The position numbers and the translations under genes were made by a program. A stretch of DNA of 36,295 bases from Myxococcaceae bacterium. GTDB taxonomy: Bacteria; Myxococcota; Myxococcia; Myxococcales; Myxococcaceae. Below, piece after piece: positions 11,509 through 30,559 of this stretch. The DNA is taken from assembly GCA_017881345.1 (NCBI GenBank), contig JADGQZ010000029.1, forward strand, positions 1-36,295, written 5' to 3'. Numbering within the stretch: position 1 is the first letter of the stretch; each line of letters starts with the position of its first letter. A model generated the notes under the pieces. That model was not told the DNA's origin, made no database searches, and worked only from the letters and a program-made list of their open reading frames with translations.

Positions 11509-12342
11509 TCAGGCCGGTCCGCCCGCGGCGGCCTCGCTCTCGGTGTCCTTGAAGAACAGGTCCTTGACCACCAGCTTGGTGACGTCGCGGTTCATCGCGG
11601 CGATGGAGGTGGTGAGCGGGATCTCCTTGGGGCAGACCTGGACGCAGTTCTGCGCCTTGCCGCAGTCCTGGATGCCGCCCGGGCCCATGAGTCCGCGCAG
11701 CCGGTCGTCGGCGTGCATCGCGCCGGTGGGGTGAAGGTTGAAGAGCCGCGCCTGGCTGATGGGCGCCGCGCCCATGAAGTCGTTGTCCTGGGTGACCTGC
11801 GGACAGGCCTCGAGGCAGCTGCCACAGGTGATGCAGGTGGAGAGCACGTAGCGCTGGGCCTGCTCGCTCTGGCTCTGCCGCGGTCCGGGGCCGAGGTTGT
11901 GGGTGCCGTCGAGCTCGATCCACGCCTTCACCTGCTTCAGCGACTCGAACATCCGGCTCCGGTCGACGGCGAGATCACGCACCATCGGGAACTTGCGCAT
12001 CGGCTCGAGGGTGATCGGCCACTCGAGCTTGTCCACCAGCGCCGAGCAGGCCATCCGCACCCGCCCGTTGATGTTCATCGCGCAGCTGCCGCAGACCTCC
12101 TCGAGGCAGGCCGCGTCCCAGGTGACCGGGGTGGTGGTCTGCCCGGCGGCGTTCACCGGGTTCCGCTGGATCTCCATCAGGCAGGAGATGACGTTGGCGC
12201 CCTTCCGGTAGGCGATCTTGAAGTCCTCGAAGCCCCCCGGCTTGTCGGCCTCCTCCTGCCGCCAGATCCGGAAGGTGATCCACTTCTCCTCGGCCCTCGC
12301 CTTGCTCTCGCTGGTCCGTCCAACCTGCTTGGCTTCATCCAT
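11509..12342 (-). CDS. sdhB: Succinate dehydrogenase/fumarate reductase, iron-sulfur subunit
   Basis: The protein has 277 residues from ATG 12342 (MDEAKQVGRTSE). The N-terminal plant-type ferredoxin domain binds a [2Fe-2S] cluster (CLEEVCGSCAMNINGRVRMAC, Cys79/84/87/99). The C-terminal domain has the [4Fe-4S] and [3Fe-4S] ligands (CITCGSCLEACP with Cys160/163/166/170; CGKAQNCVQVCPKEIP with Cys227/233/237). It carries electrons from SdhA flavin to the SdhC hemes and quinone. It is the last gene of sdhC-sdhA-sdhB, 17 bases after sdhA. The extended Cys spacing and the HPTGAMHADDRL insertion match the Bacillus/Geobacter-type enzymes rather than the four-subunit type. All ligands are intact. Confidence 0.97.
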   Translation of the reverse strand: MDEAKQVGRTSESKARAEEKWITFRIWRQEEADKPGGFEDFKIAYRKGANVISCLMEIQRNPVNAAGQTTTPVTWDAACLEEVCGSCAMNINGRVRMACSALVDKLEWPITLEPMRKFPMVRDLAVDRSRMFESLKQVKAWIELDGTHNLGPGPRQSQSEQAQRYVLSTCITCGSCLEACPQVTQDNDFMGAAPISQARLFNLHPTGAMHADDRLRGLMGPGGIQDCGKAQNCVQVCPKEIPLTTSIAAMNRDVTKLVVKDLFFKDTESEAAAGGPA

Positions 12343-12359
12343 GGCGGTCCCTGGGCTCC

Positions 12360-14231
12360 TCAGGCGTACCAGCCTGGCTCGGGGTCGAGCACCGGCGTGG
12401 GAATGTTCTCGTAGGTGATCTCGGATCCCTGCGGCGTCCACCGGGCGATGGTGGTCTTCGCCCACTTCTGGTGGCGCTCCTTCCAGGCGCGCATCCAGTC
12501 GGGGTCCTGGGTGGGGTCCTTGGTCTTGGGCTCGGGGAGCTGGAACTCAGGCTTGTAGTGCGCCCCGCGTGACTCGTCGCGGAGCAGCGCGCTCCTGGTG
12601 ATGACCTCGGCGAGCGCGAACATGTTCCACAGCTGGTTGACGAAGCTGAGCGGGCGGTTGCTGCTGTGCCCGTGGTCGAGCACGTTGATCCGCTTCCAGC
12701 GGTCCTTCAGCTCCTCGAGCTTCTCCAGGGTCTTGCGCAGCCGGTCGTTGCGCCGGACGACGGTGACGTTCTCGGTCATCACCTCGCCCAGCTCGCGGGC
12801 GAGCACGTAGGGGTTCTCGCTCCCGGTCATCTTGTCGATGGCGGCGAAGCGCTCGCCCCACTCCTTCTTCGCGTCCTCGAAGACCCTTTCCTGCACCGCG
12901 GTCGAGCTCTTCGCGTTGTTCTTCGCGTAGCTCACCATGGCCGGGCCGCCGATCATCCCGCCGTAGATGCAGGAGAGGAGCGAGTTGGCTCCGAGCCTGT
13001 TCCCGCCGTGGTACGCGTAGTCCGCCTCGCCCGACGCGTAGAGACCGGGGATGTTGGTGGCCTGGTTCTTCGGGCTGTTCGCCAGCGGCTCGAGGTTCGG
13101 CCCGGGCTCGAAGGTCACGTACAGGCCGCCCATCGAGTAGTGCATGCCCGGGAAGATGACCATCGGGTGACGGCGCGGATCGTCACCGACGAACTTCTCG
13201 TAGATCTCCATCACGCCCTTGATCTTCGCGTCGAGCGTGGCGGCCGGGATGTGCGTGACGTCGAGGTAGACGCCGTCGCGTCCCGCGATGCCCATGCCCA
13301 GCTCGCGGCAGACGTGGAAGATCTCGCGGGTGGCGACGTCGCGGGGGACCAGGTTCTTGTACTTGGGATACTTCTCCTCGAGGAAGTACCAGCGCTCGGC
13401 CTCGGGGATGCTCAGAGGATCGCGGGTGTCGTTCTTGGTCTTCGGGACCCAGACCCGCCCGCCCTCGCCGCGGACCGACTCGGACATGAGCCGCAGCTTG
13501 TCCTCGCCCGGGATGGAGGTCGGGTGGACCTGGATGAACTCGCCGTTGGCGTAGATCGCGCCCTCGAGGTACGCGCGGCCGGCGGCGGTGCCGGTGTTGA
13601 TGATCGAGTTGGTCGAGCGGCCGAACACGATGCCCGGGCCGCCGGTGGCCAGCATGACCGCCTCGGCGGGGAGCGCGCGGATCTCCATCGTCCGGAGGTC
13701 CATGGCCACGCTGCCCACGACCCGACCGGACTCGTCCTTCACCGTCCCCAGCCACTCCCAGTACTCGAACTTGGAGACCATTCCGTCGGCCTCGAAGCGG
13801 CGCACCTGCTCGTCGAGCGCATAGAGCAGCTGCTGGCCGGTGGTGGCGCCGGCGAACGCCGTCCGGTGGTGGAGCGTCCCGCCGAAGCGACGGAAGTCGA
13901 GGAGCCCTTCCGGGGTGCGGTTGAACGGCACGCCCATCCGGTCGAGCAGATAGATGATGCCTGGCGCCGCGTAGCACATGCCGCGCACGCTGGTCTGCTC
14001 GGCCAGGAAGTCCCCGCCGCGGAGCGTGTCCTTGACGTGGATGTCGGGGTGATCACCCTCGCCCTTGGTGTTCACCGCGCCGTTGATCCCGCCCTGGGCG
14101 CAGACCGAGTGCGAGCGCTTCACCGGGACGATGGAGAGGAGGTCCACCTTGTGACCGGCCTCGCAGAGCTTGATGACCGTCATCAGCCCCGCCAGCCCGC
14201 CTCCCACCACCGTGAATCGAGGTTCCGCCAT
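12360..14231 (-). CDS. sdhA: Succinate dehydrogenase/fumarate reductase, flavoprotein subunit
   Basis: The protein has 623 residues. The dinucleotide fold VVGGGLAGLMTVIKL is at residues 8-22, and RSHSVCAQGGINGAV places the covalent FAD ligand at His41. The substrate site includes the RRFGGTLHHRTAFAGATTGQQLL region, HPTSIPGEDKLRLMSESVRGEGG, the capping-domain helix RELGMGI and the flavin-proximal GNRLGANSLLSCIYGG. It oxidises succinate to fumarate at the inner face of the membrane. The overall pattern follows the Bacillus/Geobacter (type B) group, some of whose members also work as fumarate reductases. It lies 16 bases after sdhC and 17 bases before sdhB. The direction of catalysis in the cell cannot be read from sequence. 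Confidence 0.97.
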   Translation of the reverse strand: MAEPRFTVVGGGLAGLMTVIKLCEAGHKVDLLSIVPVKRSHSVCAQGGINGAVNTKGEGDHPDIHVKDTLRGGDFLAEQTSVRGMCYAAPGIIYLLDRMGVPFNRTPEGLLDFRRFGGTLHHRTAFAGATTGQQLLYALDEQVRRFEADGMVSKFEYWEWLGTVKDESGRVVGSVAMDLRTMEIRALPAEAVMLATGGPGIVFGRSTNSIINTGTAAGRAYLEGAIYANGEFIQVHPTSIPGEDKLRLMSESVRGEGGRVWVPKTKNDTRDPLSIPEAERWYFLEEKYPKYKNLVPRDVATREIFHVCRELGMGIAGRDGVYLDVTHIPAATLDAKIKGVMEIYEKFVGDDPRRHPMVIFPGMHYSMGGLYVTFEPGPNLEPLANSPKNQATNIPGLYASGEADYAYHGGNRLGANSLLSCIYGGMIGGPAMVSYAKNNAKSSTAVQERVFEDAKKEWGERFAAIDKMTGSENPYVLARELGEVMTENVTVVRRNDRLRKTLEKLEELKDRWKRINVLDHGHSSNRPLSFVNQLWNMFALAEVITRSALLRDESRGAHYKPEFQLPEPKTKDPTQDPDWMRAWKERHQKWAKTTIARWTPQGSEITYENIPTPVLDPEPGWYA

Positions 14232-14247
14232 GGGTCGTGCTCCCTGA

Positions 14248-15009
14248 TCAGCCGACGGCGCCGAAGCGCAACTGGAAGAGGATGCTCAGCGTGCCCACCG
14301 AGAGGAGCGCGAAGAGCAGCCAGGCCACCTGCGTGACGCGCCGCTGGGCAAGCCTCCCCACGGCGATGCCCCACGTCCAGCAGAATCCCTTCAGCCCGTA
14401 GGTGAAGTGCCAGAGGGTGCAGAGCGTCCCGAGGACGTAGAGGGCGAAGATGTGGTCCCCGGCGAGGATGCTCTGGACCCCGAGCGAGGCCGGGTTCCCA
14501 AGGTGGGCCGCCACGTCACGGTAGGTGACCAGATCGAGCCCGTCGGGGGTCAGGGTCCGCACCGCCGAGAGGTGATGGCCGAGCAGCGTCACCCACGTCC
14601 GGAGGGTCCCCACGTGCACCAGGAGGAACAGGAGCGCGATGACGCCGGTGATCCGCTGGGCCAGGTAGCCCCAGTTGCTCGGGTAGGCATAGCGGCCGTT
14701 GTTGGGCCGGCCGGTCACCGCGACCCAGACCCCGTAGAGCGCGTGGTAGGCCAGCGGAAGGACGATGGTCACCAGCTCGAGCGCGTAGAAGAACGGCCGC
14801 GGGAGCAGCACGTTCACGTGGTTGACCATCTCGTCGTACGCAGCCGGGCTGCGCAGCGCCGACATGTTCTCGAACAGGTGGTAGCAGAGGAAGACGCCGA
14901 GCGGCAGCACGCCCGACAGCGAGTGGAGCCGTCGCCAGAGGAAGGAGCGGTCGTCCCGGGTGCCGGCGCCCGTGCGGACGGCATCGGCGGTGGTGGCGGC
15001 ATCGGCCAT
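14248..15009 (-). CDS. sdhC: Succinate dehydrogenase/fumarate reductase, cytochrome b558 subunit
   Basis: The protein has 253 residues with five predicted membrane helices. Candidate heme-ligand histidines sit in the helices: His29 (RRLHSLSGV), His44 (CYHLFEN), LAYHALYGV, LLVHVGT and LWHFTYGLKG. This is the pattern of the diheme, single-anchor cytochrome b558 family, so no sdhD is expected and none is present. It anchors SdhAB and transfers electrons to quinone, probably menaquinone by family precedent. It is the first gene of the sdhCAB operon. The promoter should lie in the gene-free stretch upstream (from 15010), where GGTAATCAG near 15024 is a weak -10 candidate. No strong ribosome site is visible. 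Confidence 0.95.
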   Translation of the reverse strand: MADAATTADAVRTGAGTRDDRSFLWRRLHSLSGVLPLGVFLCYHLFENMSALRSPAAYDEMVNHVNVLLPRPFFYALELVTIVLPLAYHALYGVWVAVTGRPNNGRYAYPSNWGYLAQRITGVIALLFLLVHVGTLRTWVTLLGHHLSAVRTLTPDGLDLVTYRDVAAHLGNPASLGVQSILAGDHIFALYVLGTLCTLWHFTYGLKGFCWTWGIAVGRLAQRRVTQVAWLLFALLSVGTLSILFQLRFGAVG

Positions 15010-15323
15010 GGTCGAGTCTTCTGATTACCGCCCGGGGACCGCCATGACCATCGCGGGACCCCTCGGAAAATCAGGGGCTTTCATGGCGGACAGGAGTCGG
15101 CCTGTCTTCCCGGACCCCCGGGCGAGAGGCAAGGAGAATCCGGCGGAGTCCAGCGTCGCGCCCGTGAGGAACACGCTTTCTGGAGAGACCGGCCCGGGTG
15201 CCGAGCCCGTTCCTGGCCCGAGCTCCCCGCGCTGCAGGGGTGCAACGGCAGGGGGCCGATGACCACGGGGGCGCAGGGCCGGAGCGAGCACGAGCTCCGC
15301 GGACGCCCGGACCGAGAGCCGAC

Positions 15324-15340
15324 CGCTCGGTCGCCGAGCG
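15324..15340. repeat. Perfect 7-bp inverted repeat (stem-loop 1)
   Basis: CGCTCGG-TCG-CCGAGCG is a perfect 7-bp stem with a 3-base loop. It is the first of five stem-loops in the sdhC-mdh gap. No U-tract follows on either strand. Confidence 0.6.
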
Positions 15341-15375
15341 ACTTCTGCGGAAGGCCTCGCTGACCGAGCGTACGT

Positions 15376-15455
15376 TCCCCGTTCGGCAGCGCGGGGCCAC
15401 TTGGCGTCCGGCCTTGTGCCTGGCGCGCGCTCCCACGCACAAAAGCGGACGGCCG
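15376..15455. repeat. 80-bp direct repeat, copy 1
   Basis: It runs from TCCCCGTTCGGCAGCGCGGG to AAAAGCGGACGGCCG. It matches copy 2 (15537-15616) without gaps at 75 of 80 positions by hand alignment. Its right half is the imperfect palindrome at 15405-15451: CGTCCG/CGGACG outside and TTGTGC/GCACAA inside, with the inner stem spoiled by CC facing AA. A 16-base piece, GGCAGCGCGGGGCCAC, recurs at 15708-15723. Confidence 0.85.
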
Positions 15456-15480
15456 GGCAGCCCGGGCAGAAACGGACCGA

Positions 15481-15503
15481 TGGTTCGTTCGACGACCGAA
15501 CCA
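15481..15503. repeat. Perfect 7-bp inverted repeat between the direct repeats
   Basis: TGGTTCG-TTCGACGAC-CGAACCA gives a 7-bp stem with a 9-base loop. It lies in the 81-base spacer between the two 80-bp copies. It could be a dyad operator or an RNA hairpin. The T-arm-like GGTTCG is not part of a tRNA fold. Confidence 0.6.
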
Positions 15504-15536
15504 ATTCCGAGAAGACAGTCGGTGCCCGACCTAGTC

Positions 15537-15616
15537 TCCCCGTTCGGCGGCGCGGGCCCACCTGGCGTCCGGTTTTGTGCCTGGCGCGCGCTCCCACGCA
15601 CAAAAGCGGACGGCCG
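15537..15616. repeat. 80-bp direct repeat, copy 2, with long imperfect palindrome
   Basis: The copy is 161 bp downstream of copy 1. Its palindrome (15566-15612) is more complete: CGTCCG/CGGACG (6 bp), a G-G mismatch, TTTTGTGC/GCACAAAA (8 bp), a C-C mismatch, TGG/CCA (3 bp) and a 9-base loop. That is 17 pairs in 47 bases. Of the five differences from copy 1, two (CC to TT) restore pairing in the stem. Confidence 0.85.
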
Positions 15617-15704
15617 CAGCGACACCGTGCAGCCCCGGAGCGCCCGGGCCGCGCAGGCCGCCGGTCCGGGCAGTGCCGCGGTGCCCCCGAACCCGGACTC
15701 CGCC

Positions 15705-15732
15705 CGAGGCAGCGCGGGGCCACGCGGCCTCG
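15705..15732 (-). terminator. Stem-loop downstream of mdh
   Basis: CGAGGC-AG-CGCG-gggcca-CGCG-GCCTCG pairs 6 bp plus 4 bp around a two-base bulge. It starts 62 bases past the mdh stop on minus. There is no U-tract, so it is a possible terminator or 3'-end stabiliser of the icd-mdh transcript. It contains the 16-base fragment shared with the 80-bp repeat. Confidence 0.4.
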
Positions 15733-15794
15733 TCGAAGCCCGAGCTCCGGACCAGGCACCGCCGCGACCCGTGGCGGCGGCGCCCACTCCGTCT

Positions 15795-18052
<2,258 letters not shown>

Positions 18053-18173
18053 GGTGCGCTCCCGAATTGCCAAAAACCCTGGCGGTCGGGGGGTATACGG
18101 GACGCGACAACGGCTCCGCAACCTGGAACAAGTACCTACTCTTTTTGGTTGAATCGAGCCTCTCCCGGGTGAA
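18053..18173. promoter_or_regulatory. Shared divergent promoter region of icd and gltA
   Basis: This 121-base gap must drive both genes unless they are read from farther away. It has an unusually AT-rich patch, AAGTACCTACTCTTTTTGGTTG near 18130-18151, just before gltA, with TACTCT as a possible -10. It also has TATAC at 18094 near the middle, which could serve icd on minus (TTGCGG 18 bases upstream as -35). GCCA-AAAACCC-TGGC at 18069-18083 is a short dyad. None of these is conclusive. Confidence 0.4.
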
Positions 18174-19481
<1,308 letters not shown>

Positions 19482-19492
19482 GCACAGGGACC

Positions 19493-19837
19493 ATGACGCT
19501 CGACTTCACCTGCCAGAAGTGTGAGGGCACCTTCGAGATCGACGCCCAGGATCTCATCGACGGTAGCGAGAAGCTCGAGTGCCCCCACTGCAACACCCGC
19601 GCACCGGCGGCCGCGGTCGATGACTTCGTGGCCGCCCTCACCGAGATGCGGGCGCAGGTGGCGGCGCTGAGCAAGAAGTTCACCGTCTCCACGACCCTCG
19701 AGAGCGAGGATCTGGCCGAGCTCGACGCAGACGAAGACGAGGACGACGAGGACGAGGACGAGGTCGACGAGGACGACGACGACGAGGACCTCGACGAGGA
19801 CGACGACGACCTCGAGGACGAGGACGAGGAGAAGTAG
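19493..19837 (+). CDS. Zinc-ribbon protein with highly acidic C-terminal tail
   Basis: The protein has 114 residues from ATG 19493 (MTLDFTCQKCEGTFEID). A CxxC...CxxC zinc ribbon (TCQKCEG and LECPHCN, about 20 residues apart) occupies the first third. A short helical stretch follows (DDFVAALTEMRAQVAALSKKF). The last 45 or so residues are almost only Asp and Glu with a few Val, Leu and Lys. The ribbon resembles FmdB/MJ0042-type ribbons, but I do not recognise the whole protein. The acidic tail might mimic nucleic acid or bind basic proteins or metal; that is speculation. It sits 11 bases after gltA. The coding tail is a GAC/GAG repeat tract, so its length may vary between strains. Confidence 0.75.
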   Translation: MTLDFTCQKCEGTFEIDAQDLIDGSEKLECPHCNTRAPAAAVDDFVAALTEMRAQVAALSKKFTVSTTLESEDLAELDADEDEDDEDEDEVDEDDDDEDLDEDDDDLEDEDEEK

Positions 19838-19895
19838 CCGACGCCCGGACTGTCGGCCAGCGCTCGCTTGCGCGGCCACCCCGCGCCTGCGTGCC

Positions 19896-19901
19896 TAGGG
19901 T
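19896..19901 (+). promoter_or_regulatory. Candidate -10 for a leaderless nuclease-family transcript
   Basis: TAGGGT ends six bases before GTG 19908 in the context GTGCCTAGGGTGCAGG. That spacing would put the transcription start on or next to the start codon, and no ribosome site precedes the GTG. There is no clear -35. Confidence 0.35.
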
Positions 19902-19907
19902 GCAGGG

Positions 19908-20483
19908 GTGCCCGCTCCCCTGCTCCTGGCGATGCTGTTGCTCTCGGCGAACCCTCCTCCGGCATCCCTGGTGCAGATGGAGGTCAAGGACGTCGTTCCC
20001 CTCAAGGAGCTCAAGCAGCACGCCGTGGTGCTGATCTCGAAGGAGGACGGGACCGTTCTGCCGCTCTTCGTGGACGAGACCGCCGCGGTGGCCATCGCCT
20101 TCCGCCTGATGGGCCGCCCGACGCCGCACCCGCTGGCGCACGACCTGCTGGATCGCCTCGTCCCGAGCCTCGGAGGAAAGCTCACCGAGGTCCGGATCGA
20201 CGGGCTCAAGAACCACATCTACTCGAGCCACGTCTTCATCCAGCAGGCGAACCGCCAGCTGGTGATCGAGGCCCGCCCGTCGGACGCGGTGGCGATGGCG
20301 CTCGCGGCGAAGGTGCCGGTCTACACGACGCGCCAGGTGATGGCGGAGGGTGGCATCACCCGGGCCGAGATCGACACGTACGGGAGGGTGCCGGGGGACG
20401 CGCTCCCCGGCCAGGGCGGGAGCGGCACCGCCGGGACCGCGCCGGCCACCGTCTCACCCCAGAAGAAGCCCGTGGAGCTCTGA
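19908..20483 (+). CDS. Exported bifunctional nuclease-fold (BFN/DUF151) protein
   Basis: The protein has 191 residues from GTG 19908. A hydrophobic leader (MPAPLLLAMLLLSANPPPAS) is followed by the BFN domain: VQMEVKDVVPLKELKQHAVVLISKEDGTVLPLFVDETAAVAIAFRLMG, then HDLLDRLVPSLGGKLTEVRIDGLKNHIYSSHVFIQ and EARPSDAVAMALAAKVPVYTTRQVM. The ARPSDAVALA-type motif and PLFV entry are family signatures. Plant BFN proteins have DNase/RNase activity; most bacterial members are untested. The leader suggests it acts in the periplasm, unlike the more common cytoplasmic members. The C-terminal 30 residues are Gly/Pro/Thr-rich. A hairpin terminator follows. The family call is firm; nuclease activity is not shown by the sequence. 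Confidence 0.88.
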   Translation: MPAPLLLAMLLLSANPPPASLVQMEVKDVVPLKELKQHAVVLISKEDGTVLPLFVDETAAVAIAFRLMGRPTPHPLAHDLLDRLVPSLGGKLTEVRIDGLKNHIYSSHVFIQQANRQLVIEARPSDAVAMALAAKVPVYTTRQVMAEGGITRAEIDTYGRVPGDALPGQGGSGTAGTAPATVSPQKKPVEL

Positions 20484-20496
20484 CTCCGGAGACTGG

Positions 20497-20533
20497 AAAG
20501 CCCGGCCCCCCCTCCCAAGGGAAGCCGGGCTTT
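20497..20533 (+). terminator. Rho-independent-type terminator after the BFN gene
   Basis: AAAGCCCGGC and GCCGGGCTTT form a perfect 10-bp stem around a 17-base C-rich loop, 14 bases after the stop. The A/T ends give a short U run on either strand. It closes the gltA-side transcription unit. Confidence 0.75.
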
Positions 20534-20651
20534 CGCGAGGCAAACTCCGATGGGGCATCGCCCCCCCTGACGTCTACTCCGTGGGGTGACGAGTCATGTG
20601 AAGCAGCGTCGGCCCTGCTCCAGCGTGGGAGCCTGTTCGTATTCCGCCCGG

Positions 20652-20664
20652 TGACAGAGTGTCA
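20652..20664. promoter_or_regulatory. Dyad operator candidate upstream of pyk
   Basis: TGACA-GAG-TGTCA is a perfect 5-bp dyad 22 bases before the pyk ATG. TATTCC at 20640-20645 could be the -10, which would put the dyad on the transcription start, a usual repressor position. The remaining bases of 20534-20686 show nothing else clear. Confidence 0.4.
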
Positions 20665-20686
20665 AGAACCGGCCTGACCAAGCAGG

Positions 20687-22093
20687 ATGAATGCCGTGGC
20701 GCGTCGCTCGAAGATCGTCTGCACCCTTGGCCCAGCGTCCGATGCCCCTCGGGTGCTGGCCGCCATGGTCGCCTCGGGCATGGACGTGGCCCGCCTCAAT
20801 TTCTCGCACGGAAGCGCTGCCGAGCACCGTGCCCGCGCCGAGGCGGTGCGCCGCGAGTCACGCCGCGCCGGACGCAACGTCGCGATCCTCCAGGACCTCC
20901 AGGGCCCCAAGCTGCGGCTGGGGGTCTTCGCCGAGGGCCGGGTCGAGCTGGTCGCCGGTGAGTCGGTGCTCCTCGTGACCCGCCGCGGTGTGGTGGGGAG
21001 CCCGCGGCTCATCCCTGTTCCACTCCCCTCCCTCGCCCGCGACTGTTCCGCTGGCGATCCGGTGCTGCTGGATGACGGCCGGGTGCGCCTGCGCGTCCGC
21101 CGGCGGCGCGGCGCGGACGTCGAGGCGGAGGTGGAGGTGGGTGGACCCATCTCGGACCACAAGGGCGTGAGCCTTCCGGGCGCGGCGGTGTCCGTCCCGG
21201 CGTTCACGCCGAAGGACCGGCGCGACGCTGCGCTGGGCCGTGCGCTGGGGGTCGACCTGGTTGCGATGTCCTTCGTGCGGACCGCGCAGGACGTCGAGCG
21301 GGCGCGCCGGCACCTCGCCCCGGGTACGCCACTCATCGCCAAGATGGAGAAGCCGCAGGCCATCGAGGCGATGGAGGAGATCGTCCGGAGCGCGGACGGG
21401 GTGATGGTCGCGCGAGGCGACCTCGGTGTCGAGCTCCCGCTGGAGCAGGTGCCGGGCATCCAGAAGCGGCTGGTGCACCGGGCAAACGTCCTCGGGCGCA
21501 CCTGCATCGTGGCGACGGAGATGCTGGAGAGCATGATCCGCTCCCCTCGTCCCACCCGCGCCGAGGTCTCCGACGTGGCCAACGCGGTGCTCGACGGCGC
21601 GGACGCGGTGATGCTCTCGGCCGAGACCGCGGTGGGACACGATCCGGTCGCGGCAGTGGCGACGATGGCCCGCATCATCGAGGAGGCGGAGCGCGGAATG
21701 CCGCCGGCCGTGCGCCCGGAGCTCGCCGGGGGCGACATCTCTCCGGGCATCGCCGCCGCGGCGGTGGAGGCAGCGCGCAGCGTCGGCGCGAAGGTGATCG
21801 TCGCCTACACCGAGAGTGGCTACACCGCGCGTCTGGTCGCCGCCTTCCGGCCAGCGATGCCCATCCTCGCGCTGACACCGAACGACGCGGTCGTCCACCG
21901 TCTCGCCCTGGTCTGGGGCGTGGAGGCGCACCAGGTGCCGCGGCTGCGGTCCACCGACACCGTGATGCAACGGGCCCGCGACGAGGTCCGCCGGCGCGGG
22001 CTCGCCATCCGGGGGGAGCGCATCGCCATCGTCGCCGGCGTCCCGCTGAACGAGCCCGGGAACACGAACGTGCTGACCGTACAGCGCGTGTGA
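20687..22093 (+). CDS. pyk: Pyruvate kinase
   Basis: The protein has 468 residues. All signatures are present in order: KIVCTLGPAS, DVARLNFSHG, ILQDLQGPKLRLG, the B-domain, PAFTPKDRRD, MSFVRTAQDV, the active-site stretch PLIAKMEKPQAIEAMEEIV, DGVMVARGDLGVELPLEQVP and ATEMLESMIRSPRPTRAEVSDVANAVLDGADAVMLSAETAVG. The C-terminal regulatory domain (VIVAYTESGYTARLVAAFRP) is complete. It makes pyruvate and ATP from phosphoenolpyruvate, feeding the PFOR and TCA genes nearby. ATG 20687 directly abuts AGCAGG, so GTG 20696, at a better nine-base spacing, may be the true start. A dyad operator candidate lies just upstream. Confidence 0.97.
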   Translation: MNAVARRSKIVCTLGPASDAPRVLAAMVASGMDVARLNFSHGSAAEHRARAEAVRRESRRAGRNVAILQDLQGPKLRLGVFAEGRVELVAGESVLLVTRRGVVGSPRLIPVPLPSLARDCSAGDPVLLDDGRVRLRVRRRRGADVEAEVEVGGPISDHKGVSLPGAAVSVPAFTPKDRRDAALGRALGVDLVAMSFVRTAQDVERARRHLAPGTPLIAKMEKPQAIEAMEEIVRSADGVMVARGDLGVELPLEQVPGIQKRLVHRANVLGRTCIVATEMLESMIRSPRPTRAEVSDVANAVLDGADAVMLSAETAVGHDPVAAVATMARIIEEAERGMPPAVRPELAGGDISPGIAAAAVEAARSVGAKVIVAYTESGYTARLVAAFRPAMPILALTPNDAVVHRLALVWGVEAHQVPRLRSTDTVMQRARDEVRRRGLAIRGERIAIVAGVPLNEPGNTNVLTVQRV

Positions 22094-23568: not shown

Positions 23569-24204
23569 CTACTGCGGTCGAGTGGGGCGTCCGGCCGCGG
23601 CCTCGAACGAAGACAGGGTCTGGGCGCCGATGAGCATGTCCCGGACTCGCCCGTCGCGCCCGATGACCAGCGTGGTCGGGCGGCCCTGATAGGCCATCTG
23701 GCCGATCGCATCGTCGGGGGGCGCGTCGGAGAAATAGCCGTTCACCCGGGCACTGCGGACCGGAATCGCAGCGCGCAAGGTCTCCAATGATTCGTCGGAG
23801 ACGGCGAGCACCACCAGATCCGGACGGCGTTCGGCGAGCCGTTCGAGATCGGGGATCTCCTCGAGGCACGGGCCGCACCAGGTTGCCCAGAAGTTGAGGA
23901 CCACCACCTTCCCCGCGTACTCCGACAGGTGGTGGACAGAGTCGTCGCTCACCAAGCGGAAAGTGAAATCGCCGACCCGTCGAACCAGTGCGCTGTTCAC
24001 CGACCGCACGAAATGAAAGGCGAGGGCACAGGCGACGACCATCGCCACGCAGAGGCCGGCCAGGATGCCGCGACTCCATCGAAAACGGCCGCGCCGGGCG
24101 ACGAGGAGTGCGGCGAGGCCGAGAAGGCCAATCGCGAGCACCGGGAAGAGCAGCGTTCCGCGCTCGAGGAGAAAGGCAAACGCCGCCCGCTGGACCTCGT
24201 CCAT
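23569..24204 (-). CDS. Membrane-anchored TlpA/ResA-type thioredoxin
   Basis: The protein has 211 residues. Two hydrophobic helices (about residues 15-36 and 47-66) precede the thioredoxin domain, so the redox domain is probably held on the periplasmic side. The active site is WCGPC (Cys110, Cys113) in VVVLNFWATWCGPCLEEIPDLERL, and the cis-Pro loop is GRPTTLVIGRDGRV. Such proteins reduce disulfides of exported proteins or of apocytochrome c. It is followed on the same strand by the HEGLGH membrane protein. The 132-base gap to the DHOD-like gene (24205-24336) shows no gene and probably holds its promoter. Which partner protein it reduces cannot be read here. Confidence 0.88.
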   Translation of the reverse strand: MDEVQRAAFAFLLERGTLLFPVLAIGLLGLAALLVARRGRFRWSRGILAGLCVAMVVACALAFHFVRSVNSALVRRVGDFTFRLVSDDSVHHLSEYAGKVVVLNFWATWCGPCLEEIPDLERLAERRPDLVVLAVSDESLETLRAAIPVRSARVNGYFSDAPPDDAIGQMAYQGRPTTLVIGRDGRVRDMLIGAQTLSSFEAAAGRPTRPQ

Positions 24205-24336: not shown

Positions 24337-25344
24337 TCAGGGAACGCTCGGGTGCTCCCGCCACCCGTGCAGCAGATGAATGTAGTTCGCCCGCTCGTAC
24401 GCCGACGGATCTGGGCACGCCTTGAGGTTCATGCTCCCCCGGAGCTGGCGAACCGAGGTGTACTCGCGCTCCACCAGCCAGCGCTCGAGCGAGGCCCGGA
24501 GCGAGAGGAGACGCGAGGGGCCGTTGCGGAGCAGGGTCGAGACCAGCTGGACCGCCGTCGCCCCCGCCATCAGCGCGCGAATGATGTCCACCGTCTCGTG
24601 CACCCCGCCGCTGATCGCCAGGGGGATCTTCCGCTGCGCGGAGAGGATTGCCAGCCAGCGGAGCCGGAGCGGGAGCTCCGAGCTGTCCGAGAGGTGGAGC
24701 ACCCGCCTCACCTCCAGCGCATCCACGTCGATCTCCGGCTCGAACAGCCGGTTGAAGAGAACCAGCGCGTCCGCCCCGGCCTCCTCGAGGCCCCGGGCGA
24801 CGCTGGAGATGGAGGTGTAGAAGGGCGAGAGCTTCACCGCGACGGGGATCTTGATCCTGCCCTTCAGGGTCCGGACCAGATCCAGCGTGTCCTTCTCCAC
24901 CGTCGCGCCGTCCCGCGCCGGGTCGGTCGGCACCGCGTACAGGTTCAGCTCCAGCGCCGAGGCCCCCGCCTGCTCGATCAGCCGGGCGAAGTCGATCCAC
25001 CCTCCGGGCGTCGTCCCATTGAGCGAGGCGATCACCGGCACCTTCACCGCTGCGCGGATCTTCCGCAGCTGCTCCAGGTACCGGTCCGGGCCCAGCCGGT
25101 AGTCGGACGGCTCCGGAAGCATGCTCGAGGCCTCCGCCGAGAAGCTCTGGTGACCCTCGGTTGCCATGAAGGTCGACAGCTGCTCCTGCGTGAGCTGCTC
25201 CTCGAACAGCGAGCGCATCACGATGGCCGGCGCCCCGGCGTCCTCGAGCGCGCGGACGGTCCCCAGCTCGTCCGCGAGCGGCGAGGCGCCCGGCAGGAGC
25301 GGGTGCGCCAGCTTCAGTCCCAGGTACTCGACCGAGAGATCCAT
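24337..25344 (-). CDS. Dihydroorotate-dehydrogenase-like flavoprotein, PFOR-associated
   Basis: The protein has 335 residues from ATG 25344 (MDLSVEYLGLKLAHPLLPGASPLAD). The FMN-binding TIM barrel is complete: PVIASLNGTTPGGWIDFARLIEQAGASALELN, VAVKLSPFYTSISSVARGLEEAGADALVLFNR, LPLAISGGVHETVDIIRALMAGATAVQLVST. But the loop that is NLSCPN with the catalytic Cys in class 1 enzymes (Ser in class 2) reads NLYAVPTDPARDG here, so no catalytic base is in place, and the ITKS lysine is replaced in VMRS. Orotate synthesis is therefore unlikely. It begins eight bases after the PFOR stop, so it should be co-transcribed with PFOR. The usual annotation 'dihydroorotate dehydrogenase-like protein' fits; its real substrate is unknown. 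Confidence 0.88.
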   Translation of the reverse strand: MDLSVEYLGLKLAHPLLPGASPLADELGTVRALEDAGAPAIVMRSLFEEQLTQEQLSTFMATEGHQSFSAEASSMLPEPSDYRLGPDRYLEQLRKIRAAVKVPVIASLNGTTPGGWIDFARLIEQAGASALELNLYAVPTDPARDGATVEKDTLDLVRTLKGRIKIPVAVKLSPFYTSISSVARGLEEAGADALVLFNRLFEPEIDVDALEVRRVLHLSDSSELPLRLRWLAILSAQRKIPLAISGGVHETVDIIRALMAGATAVQLVSTLLRNGPSRLLSLRASLERWLVEREYTSVRQLRGSMNLKACPDPSAYERANYIHLLHGWREHPSVP

Positions 25345-25352
25345 GTGCGCGC

Positions 25353-28300
25353 TCACTCCTGGCTGGCCGCGGGCGGCGGCCGGACATCGGGGATGGCCGT
25401 GGCCTGCGGCACGACGACCTTGGCCAGCTGCTCGTACACGCCGTAGCGCTGGGTGACGTTCTGCTGCGCCCACGCCAGGAGCTGCTTGTAGCGCTCCGGG
25501 TCGAGGCTCTCGGTGATCCGGAAGCGGGCCTCCTCGCGCATGTACTCGCGCACCGGAAGCTTCGCCGGCCCCGAGTCGAGCACCAGCGGCGGCTGACCGG
25601 CGGCGCTGCGCCGCGGGTCGAAGCGGTAGAGCGGCCAGGTCGCCGAGTCCACCGCCCGCTTCTGCTGCTCGAGCCCGTTCACCAGGTCGTAGCCATGGGC
25701 GATGCAGTGGCTGTAGGCGATGACCAGCGAGGGGCCGCGGTAGCTCTCGGCCTCGAGCATCGCCTTGACCACCTGGGCGTCCTTCGCCCCGAAGGCCACC
25801 TGGGCCACGTAGGCGGTCCGGTAGCCCATCGCCAGGAGCCCCAGGTCCTTCTTCCCGATGGACTTGCCCGCAGCGGCGAACTTGGCCGCGGCGCCGAGCG
25901 GCGTCGCCTTGGATTGCTGGCCGCCGGTGTTCGAGTACACCTCGGTGTCGAGCACCAGGATGTTCACGTCGACGTCCGTCGAGAGGACGTGGTCGAGCCC
26001 GCCGTAGCCGATGTCGTAGGCCCAGCCGTCACCTCCGACGATCCACACCGTCTTCTTCAGCAGGTGGTCCGCCAGCCCGCGAAGCGTCCGGCCCTCGAGG
26101 GTGTCGGTCTTCAAACGGCCCTTCAGCTCGGCCACCCGCTTCCGCTGGGCGGCGATGCCGGCCTCGGTGGACTGGTCCGCCTCCAGCAGCGCGGTGACGA
26201 ACGCGTCCCCCAGGACCGGGGCCTGCCGCTTCAGGACGGTCTCCGCCAGGTGCCGGAGCGCGTCCGAGCCGAGCCGGATGCCGAAGCCGAACTCGGCGTT
26301 GTCCTCGAAGAGCGAGTTGGCCCAGGCCGGGCCGCGCCCATCGCGGTTCACGGAGTAGGGGGTCGTGGGGAGGTTCCCGCCGTAGATGGACGAGCAGCCG
26401 GTGGCGTTGGAGATGATCATCCGGTCGCCGAAGAGCTGGGTGAGCAGCTTGATGTAGGGCGTCTCACCGCACCCGGAGCAGGCGCCCGAGAACTCGAAGA
26501 GCGGCTGGAGGAACTGCGAGCCCTTCACGTCCAGCCGGAGCGTGGTCCGGTCCACCTCGGGAAGGTCGAGGAAGAAGTCGAACGACCTCTTCTCCTGGTC
26601 CCGGAGCGGCGGTTGCGGCGCGAGCTCCAGCGCCTTGTGGCGGGGGTTCGCCTTGTCCTTGGCCGGGCAGACCTCGATGCAGAGCCCGCATCCGGTGCAG
26701 TCCTCCGGCGCGACCTGGACGGTGTACGCGCTTCCCGCCTGGCCCTTGAAGGCCATGTGCTTGAAGCCTTCCGGCGCCGTGGCCACCGCGCCCTCGCCGT
26801 AGACCTTGGTCCGGATGGCCGCGTGCGGGCAGACCAGCGCACACTTGTTGCACTGGATGCAGATCGGCCCGTCCCAGACGGGGATCTCCAGCGCCAGGTT
26901 CCGCTTCTCCCAGCGGGCCGTCGCCGTGGGCCACGTCCCGTCGATGGGGAAGGCGCTGACCGGGAGCAGGTCCCCCTTGTTCTCCAGCATCACCGCCGTG
27001 ACCCGGCGCACGAAGTCCGGCGCCTCCGGCGCGACCACCGGGGGCCGGCCGCGGGTCGCGGTCATCTTTCCCGGTATCTTCACCGCGAAGAGCGAGGCGA
27101 GCGAGGCGTCCACCGCGGCGTGGTTTCGCCGCACCACCTCGGCGCCCTTCTTCTTGTAGGTCTTCTCGATGGACCTCTTGATCTGCTCGATGGCCTCGTC
27201 GCGCGGGAGCACGCCGGAGAGCGCGAAGAAGCAGGCCTGCATCACGGCGTTGATCCGCCCACCCATCCCCGCCGTCTGAGCGACCTTCACCGCGTCGATG
27301 ACGTGGAGCTGCAGCTTCTTCTCCAGCACCGTCTCCTGGAACTCGCGCGGCAGCCGGTCCCAGACCTGCTCCGGGGTGTAGGGCGCGTTGATCAGGACCA
27401 CCGCGCCTGGCGCCGCCAGCTCGAGCACGTCCATCCGGTCGATGAGCTGGAACTGGTGCACACCCACGAAGCCGGCCTGCTTGACCAGATACGACGAGCG
27501 GATCGGCCCTGGCCCGAAGCGGAGGTGACTGATGGTCATCGCCCCCGACTTCTTCGAGTCGTAGACGAAGTAGCCCTGGGCCGCGTGCTCGGTCTCCTCG
27601 CCGATGATCTTGATCGAGGCCTTGTTGGCGCCGACGGTCCCATCGGAGCCGAGGCCGTAGAAGACCGCCTGGGTCCGTCCGGGGACGGAGATCTCGAAGT
27701 CCCGCTTCCACTCGAGCGAGGTCCGGGTGACGTCGTCGACGATGCCGATCGTGAAGTGGTTCTTCGGCTCGGGGCGGGCGAGGTTCTCGAAGACCGCCCG
27801 CACCATCCCGGGATCGAACTCCTTCGAGGACAGTCCGTACCTGCCGCCCACCACGGCCGGGATCGGACGGCCGGCGCGGGCCTCGGCGAAGGTCGTCAGC
27901 ACGTCCATGTAGAGCGGCTCGCCCGGGGCTCCGGGCTCCTTGGTGCGATCGAGCACCGCGACCGCGCGGGCGGTCCTGGGAAGCGCGGCAAGGAACTCCT
28001 CCGCCGGGAACGGCCGGTACAGGCGGATCTTCACGACGCCGACCCGCTCACCCTTGGACAGGAGCCAGTCGACCGTCTCGTGCGCCACCTCGGCGCCGGA
28101 GCCCATGGCCACCACCACCCGCTCGGCCTGCGGGTGACCATGGTAGTCGACCAGGTGGTACTGGCGGCCGGTGAGCTTCCCCAGCCGGTCCATCTCCTCC
28201 TGCACGATCTCGGGACAGACGGCGTAGAAGGGATTGCACGCCTCGCGTGCCTGGAAGAAGGCGTCCGGGTTCTGGGCCGTGCCGCGGAGCACCGGGTGCT

Positions 28301-28934
28301 CCGGGTCGAGCGCGCGGCCCCGGTGGGCGGCGATCGCCTCCTCGTTCACCATCGCCCGGAGCTGCTCGTCGGAGAGCTCGGTGATCTTCGCCACCTCGTG
28401 CGAGGTGCGGAACCCGTCGAAGAAGTGGATGAATGGCACCCGGGCTCGCAGCGTCGCCGCGTGGGCCACCGCCGCGAGGTCGTGCGCCTCCTGCACCGAG
28501 CCCGAGGCCAGGAGTCCGAGGCCGATCTGCCGGCAGGCCATCACGTCCGAGTGGTCCCCGAAGATGCTGAGCGCGTGCGTGGCCAGCGTGCGCGCCGCCA
28601 CGTGCATGCAGAACGCAGTCAGCTCCCCGGCGATCTTGTAGAGGTTGGGGATCATCAGCAGCAGGCCCTGCGACGCCGTGAAGGTCGTCGTCAGCGCCCC
28701 GGCCTGGAGTGCCCCGTGGACCGCCCCTGCCACCCCCGCCTCCGACTGGAGCTGGACGACCCGCGGGACGACGCCCCAGATGTTCTGCTGGCCGTGTGCC
28801 GACCACTCGTCAGCCAGCTCGGCCATCGTCGAGGAGGGAGTGATGGGGTAGATGGCGATGGTCTCGGACAGCCGGTGGGCAACCGAGGCCACGGCCTCGT
28901 TCCCATCCACGGTGAGGAGGCGAGGCGTGCTCAT
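25353..28934 (-). CDS. nifJ: Pyruvate:ferredoxin (flavodoxin) oxidoreductase, single chain
   Basis: The protein has 1193 residues from ATG 28934, preceded by GGAGGG; the track's 145-residue extension is Arg-rich and rejected. Domains in order: the pyrimidine-binding domain with YPITPSSTMAE (residues 29-39), the transketolase-like domains, the gamma domain (GMGGRINAVMQACFF), the ferredoxin domain with two [4Fe-4S] sets near residues 689 and 744 (CIQCNKCALVCPHAAIR; CTGCGLCIEVCPAKDK), the proximal cluster and TPP start CSGCGETPY near 818, and GDGWAYDIGYGG near 965. It splits pyruvate and CoA into acetyl-CoA, CO2 and reduced ferredoxin, an oxygen-sensitive route. No regulator is adjacent. The next gene is the DHOD-like protein. 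Length matches known single-chain PFORs. Confidence 0.97.
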   Translation of the reverse strand: MSTPRLLTVDGNEAVASVAHRLSETIAIYPITPSSTMAELADEWSAHGQQNIWGVVPRVVQLQSEAGVAGAVHGALQAGALTTTFTASQGLLLMIPNLYKIAGELTAFCMHVAARTLATHALSIFGDHSDVMACRQIGLGLLASGSVQEAHDLAAVAHAATLRARVPFIHFFDGFRTSHEVAKITELSDEQLRAMVNEEAIAAHRGRALDPEHPVLRGTAQNPDAFFQAREACNPFYAVCPEIVQEEMDRLGKLTGRQYHLVDYHGHPQAERVVVAMGSGAEVAHETVDWLLSKGERVGVVKIRLYRPFPAEEFLAALPRTARAVAVLDRTKEPGAPGEPLYMDVLTTFAEARAGRPIPAVVGGRYGLSSKEFDPGMVRAVFENLARPEPKNHFTIGIVDDVTRTSLEWKRDFEISVPGRTQAVFYGLGSDGTVGANKASIKIIGEETEHAAQGYFVYDSKKSGAMTISHLRFGPGPIRSSYLVKQAGFVGVHQFQLIDRMDVLELAAPGAVVLINAPYTPEQVWDRLPREFQETVLEKKLQLHVIDAVKVAQTAGMGGRINAVMQACFFALSGVLPRDEAIEQIKRSIEKTYKKKGAEVVRRNHAAVDASLASLFAVKIPGKMTATRGRPPVVAPEAPDFVRRVTAVMLENKGDLLPVSAFPIDGTWPTATARWEKRNLALEIPVWDGPICIQCNKCALVCPHAAIRTKVYGEGAVATAPEGFKHMAFKGQAGSAYTVQVAPEDCTGCGLCIEVCPAKDKANPRHKALELAPQPPLRDQEKRSFDFFLDLPEVDRTTLRLDVKGSQFLQPLFEFSGACSGCGETPYIKLLTQLFGDRMIISNATGCSSIYGGNLPTTPYSVNRDGRGPAWANSLFEDNAEFGFGIRLGSDALRHLAETVLKRQAPVLGDAFVTALLEADQSTEAGIAAQRKRVAELKGRLKTDTLEGRTLRGLADHLLKKTVWIVGGDGWAYDIGYGGLDHVLSTDVDVNILVLDTEVYSNTGGQQSKATPLGAAAKFAAAGKSIGKKDLGLLAMGYRTAYVAQVAFGAKDAQVVKAMLEAESYRGPSLVIAYSHCIAHGYDLVNGLEQQKRAVDSATWPLYRFDPRRSAAGQPPLVLDSGPAKLPVREYMREEARFRITESLDPERYKQLLAWAQQNVTQRYGVYEQLAKVVVPQATAIPDVRPPPAASQE

Positions 28935-30013: not shown

Positions 30014-30029
30014 CGGACCGTGGGGTCCG
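30014..30029 (+). terminator. Short perfect hairpin between hydrolase and hemerythrin genes
   Basis: CGGACC-GTGG-GGTCCG has a 6-bp stem and a 4-base loop, about 46 bases after the hydrolase stop. There is no U-tract, so its role as terminator is uncertain. Confidence 0.35.
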
Positions 30030-30106
30030 CTGCGCAAGCTGTGCGCCCGAAGGCTGACGGGCGTTCGGCGGCCGAAGGGATTGCGGGTCTGCCCAGGAGG
30101 ACCACC

Positions 30107-30559
30107 ATGGAGCTGAGCGCGAGTCAGGTCCGCAGCCTCATCCTCGACGAGCACACCGTCCTCCGGGACGTCCTCGAGGAGATCGACGAGACGCTGGGGG
30201 AGATGACGCGGCGTGTCCCGGGCGCCATCGGGCGTCTCCGGGGCACGCTCCGGACGTTTCAGGATGCCTTCCTCCGTCACCTGAACCACGAGGAGACGGT
30301 GCTCCGTCCGCTGCTGGTCGATGTGGACGCCTGGGGCCCGGCGCGGGTCGAGGCGATGGACGAGGAGCACAGGGCGCAGCGCGCTGCCATCGCCGAGCTC
30401 AGCCGCCTGGCTCTGGACCAGGACCTCGATGCCACCGTCCAGCGCATCGAGGACTTCGTGCGCCGGCTCCGCGCAGACATGGACGGCGAGGAGCACCACG
30501 CGCTGAGCCCGGAAGTGCTCCGCGACGACATCATCGTCATCGACACCTTCATGGGCTAG
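30107..30559 (+). CDS. Hemerythrin HHE domain protein
   Basis: The protein has 150 residues from ATG 30107 (MELSASQVRSLILDEHTVLRD), with CAGGAGG six bases upstream; the track's longer N-terminus is rejected. The four-helix HHE cation-binding fold is supported by His16 (LDEHTVLRD), His58/His61/Glu62 (FLRHLNHEETVLRPLL), His88 (MDEEHRAQR) and His130/His131 (DGEEHHALSPEVL). Such proteins bind a di-iron site and sense or store O2, NO or iron. It stands alone between the hydrolase and the convergent nuoN (20 bases away). A role in oxygen or nitric oxide handling near PFOR is inference from context only. Confidence 0.88.
   Translation: MELSASQVRSLILDEHTVLRDVLEEIDETLGEMTRRVPGAIGRLRGTLRTFQDAFLRHLNHEETVLRPLLVDVDAWGPARVEAMDEEHRAQRAAIAELSRLALDQDLDATVQRIEDFVRRLRADMDGEEHHALSPEVLRDDIIVIDTFMG

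Follow-up and report, generated by a model that had tools for sequence, protein, structure and literature searches.

The neighbourhood of pyruvate:ferredoxin oxidoreductase (PFOR) and a dihydroorotate dehydrogenase-like (DHOD-like) protein has already been published for Propionibacterium and Synechocystis. In Propionibacterium, the genes for an NfnB-like protein, PFOR and a DHOD-like protein are co-transcribed and co-regulated, a bifurcating complex was proposed, and a PFOR knockout shows a growth defect (PMC7650540). In Synechocystis PCC 6803, the nifJ transcription unit (sll0741-sll0743-sll0744) contains sll0744, which is annotated as dihydroorotate dehydrogenase. The unit is transiently induced upon a dark micro-oxic shift and the nifJ operon is under the control of SigE and cyAbrB2 (PMC11368403). 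On the protein family concerned here, NF005741/PRK07565, a literature search under the family name yielded almost nothing; in an older paper, PRK07565 is identified with class 2 PyrD (PMC3224940).

Gene organisation of the PFOR locus

The DNA analysed here is a stretch of 36,295 nucleotides from a Myxococcaceae bacterium (GCA_017881345.1, contig JADGQZ010000029.1, positions 1 to 36,295), referred to as the window. The DHOD-like gene lies on the minus strand at 24337..25344 and encodes 335 amino acids; the plus-strand frame of the same interval is not the gene. Directly upstream, also on the minus strand, lies the gene for a single-chain pyruvate:ferredoxin (flavodoxin) oxidoreductase (nifJ/PFOR, 25353..28934). 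Its frame spans 25353 to about 28934, with the start set at MSTPRL. The product scores 1704.6 bits with TIGR02176 (curated cut-off 911) and contains the PFOR domains in Pfam. The PFOR stop codon (25355-25353) and the DHOD-like ATG at 25344 are separated by 8 bases, read directly from the sequence (25345..25352, minus strand), and a ribosome-binding-like AGGAG motif overlaps the end of PFOR ahead of the ATG. A sequence-only reading of this DNA had noted the eight-base spacing and called the pair surely co-transcribed. The spacing is exact; co-transcription is published for relatives and is here inferred from the 8-base gap.

A thioredoxin/AhpC-TSA-type gene with a WCGPC motif (23569..24204, minus strand, Pfam PF00578/PF08534) follows 132 bases downstream on the same strand and is possibly the third gene of the transcript. 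As in Propionibacterium, PFOR adjoins the DHOD-like gene, a likeness in gene arrangement. In contrast to the Propionibacterium cluster (PMC7650540), the window has no NfnB-like gene adjoining PFOR. Synechocystis sll0744 would belong to the same family as the window protein, judging solely by its annotation and operon.

Two further features of the window were observed. The region 11509-22093 is a central-carbon island with genes for SdhB, SdhA, SdhC and malate dehydrogenase (all minus strand) and for citrate synthase and pyruvate kinase (plus strand), and includes a candidate isocitrate-dehydrogenase-like ORF at 16751-18268. A hemerythrin HHE-domain protein is encoded divergently from PFOR at 30020-30559 (plus strand).

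Family assignment and predicted fold

The DHOD-like protein matches NF005741/PRK07565 over its full length (residues 1-327) with 400.8 bits, above the curated cut-off of 303, and all 41 aligned relatives match the same model. By this profile the window protein is clearly a new member of an already named, uncharacterised family, from which it differs in nothing. The NCBI name of the family is "dihydroorotate dehydrogenase-like protein", and RefSeq plasmid records use the same product name. The NCBI conserved-domain collection presumably remarks that proteins of the PRK07565 kind lack catalytic residues.

Models of genuine dihydroorotate dehydrogenases (DHODHs) were missed by far. The score was 95 bits against a cut-off of 269 for NF005574 and 93.4 against 270 for TIGR01037 (both class 1), and 21.4 against 200 for TIGR01036 (class 2). 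The protein starts with MDLSVEYLG, lacks the N-terminal membrane extension of class 2 enzymes and has Ala at the position of the catalytic base. The low class 2 score, the missing base and the missing extension leave the equation of PRK07565 with class 2 PyrD unsupported.

An AlphaFold2 model built from a 41-row alignment reached a pLDDT of 87.5 and a pTM of 0.86, and in this model the FMN-type TIM barrel is intact. Foldseek searches with the model returned dihydropyrimidine dehydrogenase (DPD) as best match (E 2e-17), followed by DHODB and DHODA. TM-scores were about 0.65-0.70 with large rmsd; the modelled fold thus has a remote but clear match to these enzymes. With the FMN domain of DPD/PreA the protein has W116, GAxALELN and KLSP in common, but a variable residue replaces Cys671, and both the C-terminal 4Fe-4S domain and the N-terminal NADPH/FAD domain are missing. 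With DHODB (PyrDB, L. lactis 1EP3) it shares the FMN barrel and the flavin residues of ELN and VKLSP, but it lacks the catalytic Cys, the orotate-loop region is replaced, Thr is changed to Arg199, and no PyrK gene was seen adjoining the DHOD-like gene. NfnA is of the PyrK type and carries FAD and a 2Fe-2S cluster. A Pfam search of the 335-aa protein found the DHO_dh-type barrel only, with neither the PyrK-type FAD/2Fe-2S domains of an NfnA-like protein nor the Fer4 domain of DPD/PreA.

A conserved alternative active site

Profile alignments place NLYAVP (N134-P139), with no gap, on NISCPN of L. lactis DHODB and on NLSCPH of pig DPD, of which mutant crystal sequences carry A671/S671 at Cys671. 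Since ELNLYAVP aligns gap-free to ELNISCPN (DHODB) and ELNLS(C671)PH (DPD), A137 occupies the position of the catalytic Cys. The codons for Y136-A137-V138-P139, in the position that class 1 enzymes fill with the catalytic S-C-P-N, lie at 24928..24939 (minus strand). The first flavin-site lysine is lost as well, VMRS (42-45) with R44 standing where (I)TKS is expected, and the second is retained as K171 in VAVKLSP. The sequence-only reading had described the replaced Cys motif, the exchange of Lys for Arg and an intact FMN barrel, and is right on all three. The losses are real, but they are traits of the whole family and not peculiar to the window protein.

This became apparent in a survey of 116 members from four phyla plus one from Sumerlaeota. 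At position 137, Tyr (45), Ala (17), Ser (13), Arg (8), Leu (7), Phe (5), Thr (4), Asp (4) and others were found, and none of the 116 had Cys. The 13 Ser and 4 Thr raised the possibility of a replacement base; because the column is mixed and Ser and Ala are exchanged even between same-genus orthologues (Ala in the window protein, Ser in its orthologue), no base is maintained there. Position 44 is mainly His, Arg, Pro or Tyr, with Lys in five members. A different set of residues is common to the family, namely S45-L-F-E-E-Q, E132-L-N-x-Y, F197-N-R, R318 and Y321, and the window protein conforms to it. No variation occurs at S45, E49, N134, K171, N198 or R318, and 115/116 members have R199. The residues expected to contact FMN (S45, S107, N134, K171, G247) are conserved, and R199 sits where DHODs have a substrate-binding Ser/Thr; the substrate Ser/Thr and Asn positions are altered.

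Barrel enzymes of this type have their active site where the strands end on the C-terminal side, and of the 15 near-invariant polar residues ten fall there (hypergeometric p 5e-5, with strand-end windows of our own choice taken from the predicted secondary structure). The DHOD-like gene is under purifying selection, with a dN/dS of 0.14 against the same-genus orthologue (0.11 for PFOR), and on this ground, together with the invariant site, a decayed pseudoenzyme was rejected. As the alternative polar set is invariant and purifying selection acts on the gene, the active site, as read from these sequences, is re-tooled and not decayed. This conserved alternative signature of the PRK07565 family may be unreported.

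Separate PyrD and association with PFOR

We searched for other pyrD genes in the genomes that carry the DHOD-like gene. In the genome of the window itself, a PF01180 match on contig C18 covers the beginning of a pyrD that the contig end cuts off; its N-terminal extension and sequence mark it as class 2. Another canonical PyrD with a clear DHO_dh match is encoded in 34 of 36 further carriers, and in two (G037 and G171) no other canonical DHO_dh match was found. Their assemblies are perhaps incomplete; alternatively, the two are auxotrophs or depart from the rule. The missed cut-offs, the unconserved base and the additional PyrD agree with the suggestion of the sequence-only reading that the protein does not act as a DHODH, and the start of the pyrD that it had proposed to look for elsewhere in the genome is present. 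That the protein is nonetheless a genuine dihydroorotate dehydrogenase using an atypical base, as the fold, the remote similarity and the two carriers might suggest, is scarcely credible, given the unconserved base position, the changed substrate Ser/Thr and Asn positions and the separate pyrD.

Co-occurrence was counted in four phyla, comparing genomes with NF005741 over cut-off with those encoding single-chain PFOR. PFOR was present in 152 of the 157 genomes carrying the DHOD-like gene. In Myxococcota, the gene occurs in 38/157 genomes, 37 of them with PFOR (45 PFOR genomes in total). The corresponding numbers are 39/146, 38 and 107 for cyanobacteria, 31/199, 28 and 55 for the actinobacterial phylum, and 49/148, 49 and 82 for Bacteroidota (GTDB grouping). 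Fisher p values range from 1e-5 to 6e-27 and are too small, the relatives being non-independent. Five carriers are exceptions. G327 has a PFOR fragment at a contig edge and in G384 the contig ends just past the DHOD-like gene; G073, G180 and G346 have no such contig-end account. The reverse dependence does not hold: PFOR does not need the DHOD-like gene, because it is often present without it, as in 8 of the 45 Myxococcota PFOR genomes and in most small-genome cyanobacteria. This near one-way dependence across phyla may be unreported.

Adjacency is conserved too. Among 161 DHOD-like copies, 120 adjoin PFOR on the same strand, with PFOR upstream in 117. The remaining 41 were not seen adjoining PFOR, some lying in other neighbourhoods, so that the protein does not need a fixed complex with PFOR. 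An apparent PFOR::DHOD-like fusion in G003, a 988-aa in-frame opening, was rejected, since PFOR ends at a TGA of its own and is read in another frame than the DHOD-like gene. Among 59 adjacent PFOR/DHOD-like pairs the tree distances correlate (r=0.83 for all pairs together, 0.86-0.96 inside single phyla), although species descent alone is able to yield such a correlation and shared descent may explain part of it. Likewise, a common anaerobic lifestyle could be the source of part of the co-occurrence. In the tree of DHOD-like proteins, which the sequence-only reading had also proposed, the window protein falls into a clade (starred) of 15 Myxococcota sequences, all PFOR-linked. The link to PFOR that it had suspected is thus borne out by co-occurrence, conserved adjacency and purifying selection, and its interpretation as a whole is upheld in part.

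Proposed function and alternatives

The computed basis for a functional proposal comprises family membership, the intact fold, the loss of the Cys/Ser base, the new invariant polar set, and PFOR co-occurrence and adjacency; reports that other bacteria co-express the pair (PMC7650540, PMC11368403) point the same way. On balance we lean towards a PFOR-dependent redox flavoprotein that is not a DHODH. In this reading, the family derives from class 1 dihydroorotate/dihydropyrimidine dehydrogenases, no longer handles pyrimidines and works with NifJ-type PFOR. The barrel is predicted to bind FMN, which would be reduced or oxidised with PFOR electrons, either directly or through ferredoxin or flavodoxin. 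The re-tooled site with R199 would then exchange these electrons with a small organic substrate, probably an anion, that belongs to anaerobic carbon metabolism. This last step, with a small carboxylate as substrate, is put forward tentatively. More speculative still is that PRK07565 serves across bacteria as a dedicated redox partner of NifJ-type PFOR. Its FMN would then exchange electrons directly with PFOR and link pyruvate oxidation to the reduction or oxidation of an unrecognised small metabolite. If true, anaerobic pyruvate metabolism would have a branch that has so far been overlooked.

Copies located away from PFOR bear on the foremost alternative. Cyanobacterial copies of this kind (L126, L127, L128, L185) are followed by 6-phosphofructokinase, one of them on an Acaryochloris plasmid, and a Stanieria plasmid copy adjoins lactate dehydrogenase and PEP synthase. 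In a Chlorobia-like group (L173-L179) the copy adjoins sdhC-sdhA-sdhB and a cyclase/arylformamidase-like gene, and PFOR is located elsewhere in the genome. In Anaeromyxobacter-like Myxococcota (L051, L061) it lies between a universal stress protein gene and genes for rubrerythrin and a GlpC-like FeS protein. Both group labels are our own, derived from genes and not from names. The recurring theme of these PFOR-less neighbourhoods is anaerobic central carbon metabolism. The protein might be an enzyme of metabolite repair or a reductase that stands alone, acting on a by-product that arises in anaerobic pyruvate metabolism, with PFOR only supplying reduced ferredoxin or substrate. The central-carbon neighbours (PFK, Sdh/Frd, lactate dehydrogenase, PEP synthase) speak for this, as do the invariant residues, which are the same in copies beside and away from PFOR. 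The strong preference for the place directly after PFOR in four phyla speaks against it, and we consider it unlikely.

Lower in the order stands a subunit of an Nfn-like bifurcating complex of NfnB-like (GltD-like) protein, PFOR and DHOD-like protein, in which the DHOD-like protein would exchange electrons with quinol (PMC7650540). An NfnB-like gene directly precedes PFOR in G021, Trebonia, G396, Phenylobacterium and Methylovirgula, and the published co-transcription, co-regulation and knockout phenotype fit this reading. The three-gene arrangement is, however, found at a minority of loci. Among the large-flank genome loci screened, only 3 genomes have an NfnB-like gene adjoining PFOR; at most loci, as in the window, just PFOR and the DHOD-like gene stand together, and the protein has a PyrD-type barrel and no PyrK-type domain. 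We consider such a subunit quite unlikely here, and with the NfnB-like neighbour only occasional, the complex was rejected as a general rule.

A role in protecting PFOR (from oxygen) or in its assembly (FeS maturation), with the flavin structural or acting as an oxygen or radical sink, is very improbable. PFOR adjacency and the rubrerythrin and universal stress genes beside Anaeromyxobacter-type copies would suit such a role, but the conserved polar active site favours catalysis and the gene also occurs beside sdhCAB in Chlorobia-like genomes.

Annotation routinely gives a widespread gene the name of a pyrimidine enzyme although its product lacks the base of that enzyme, and metabolic models can be misled by this. 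A concrete lead to an unrecognised fermentation reaction comes from the near one-way PFOR dependence and from the alternative active site that the members share.
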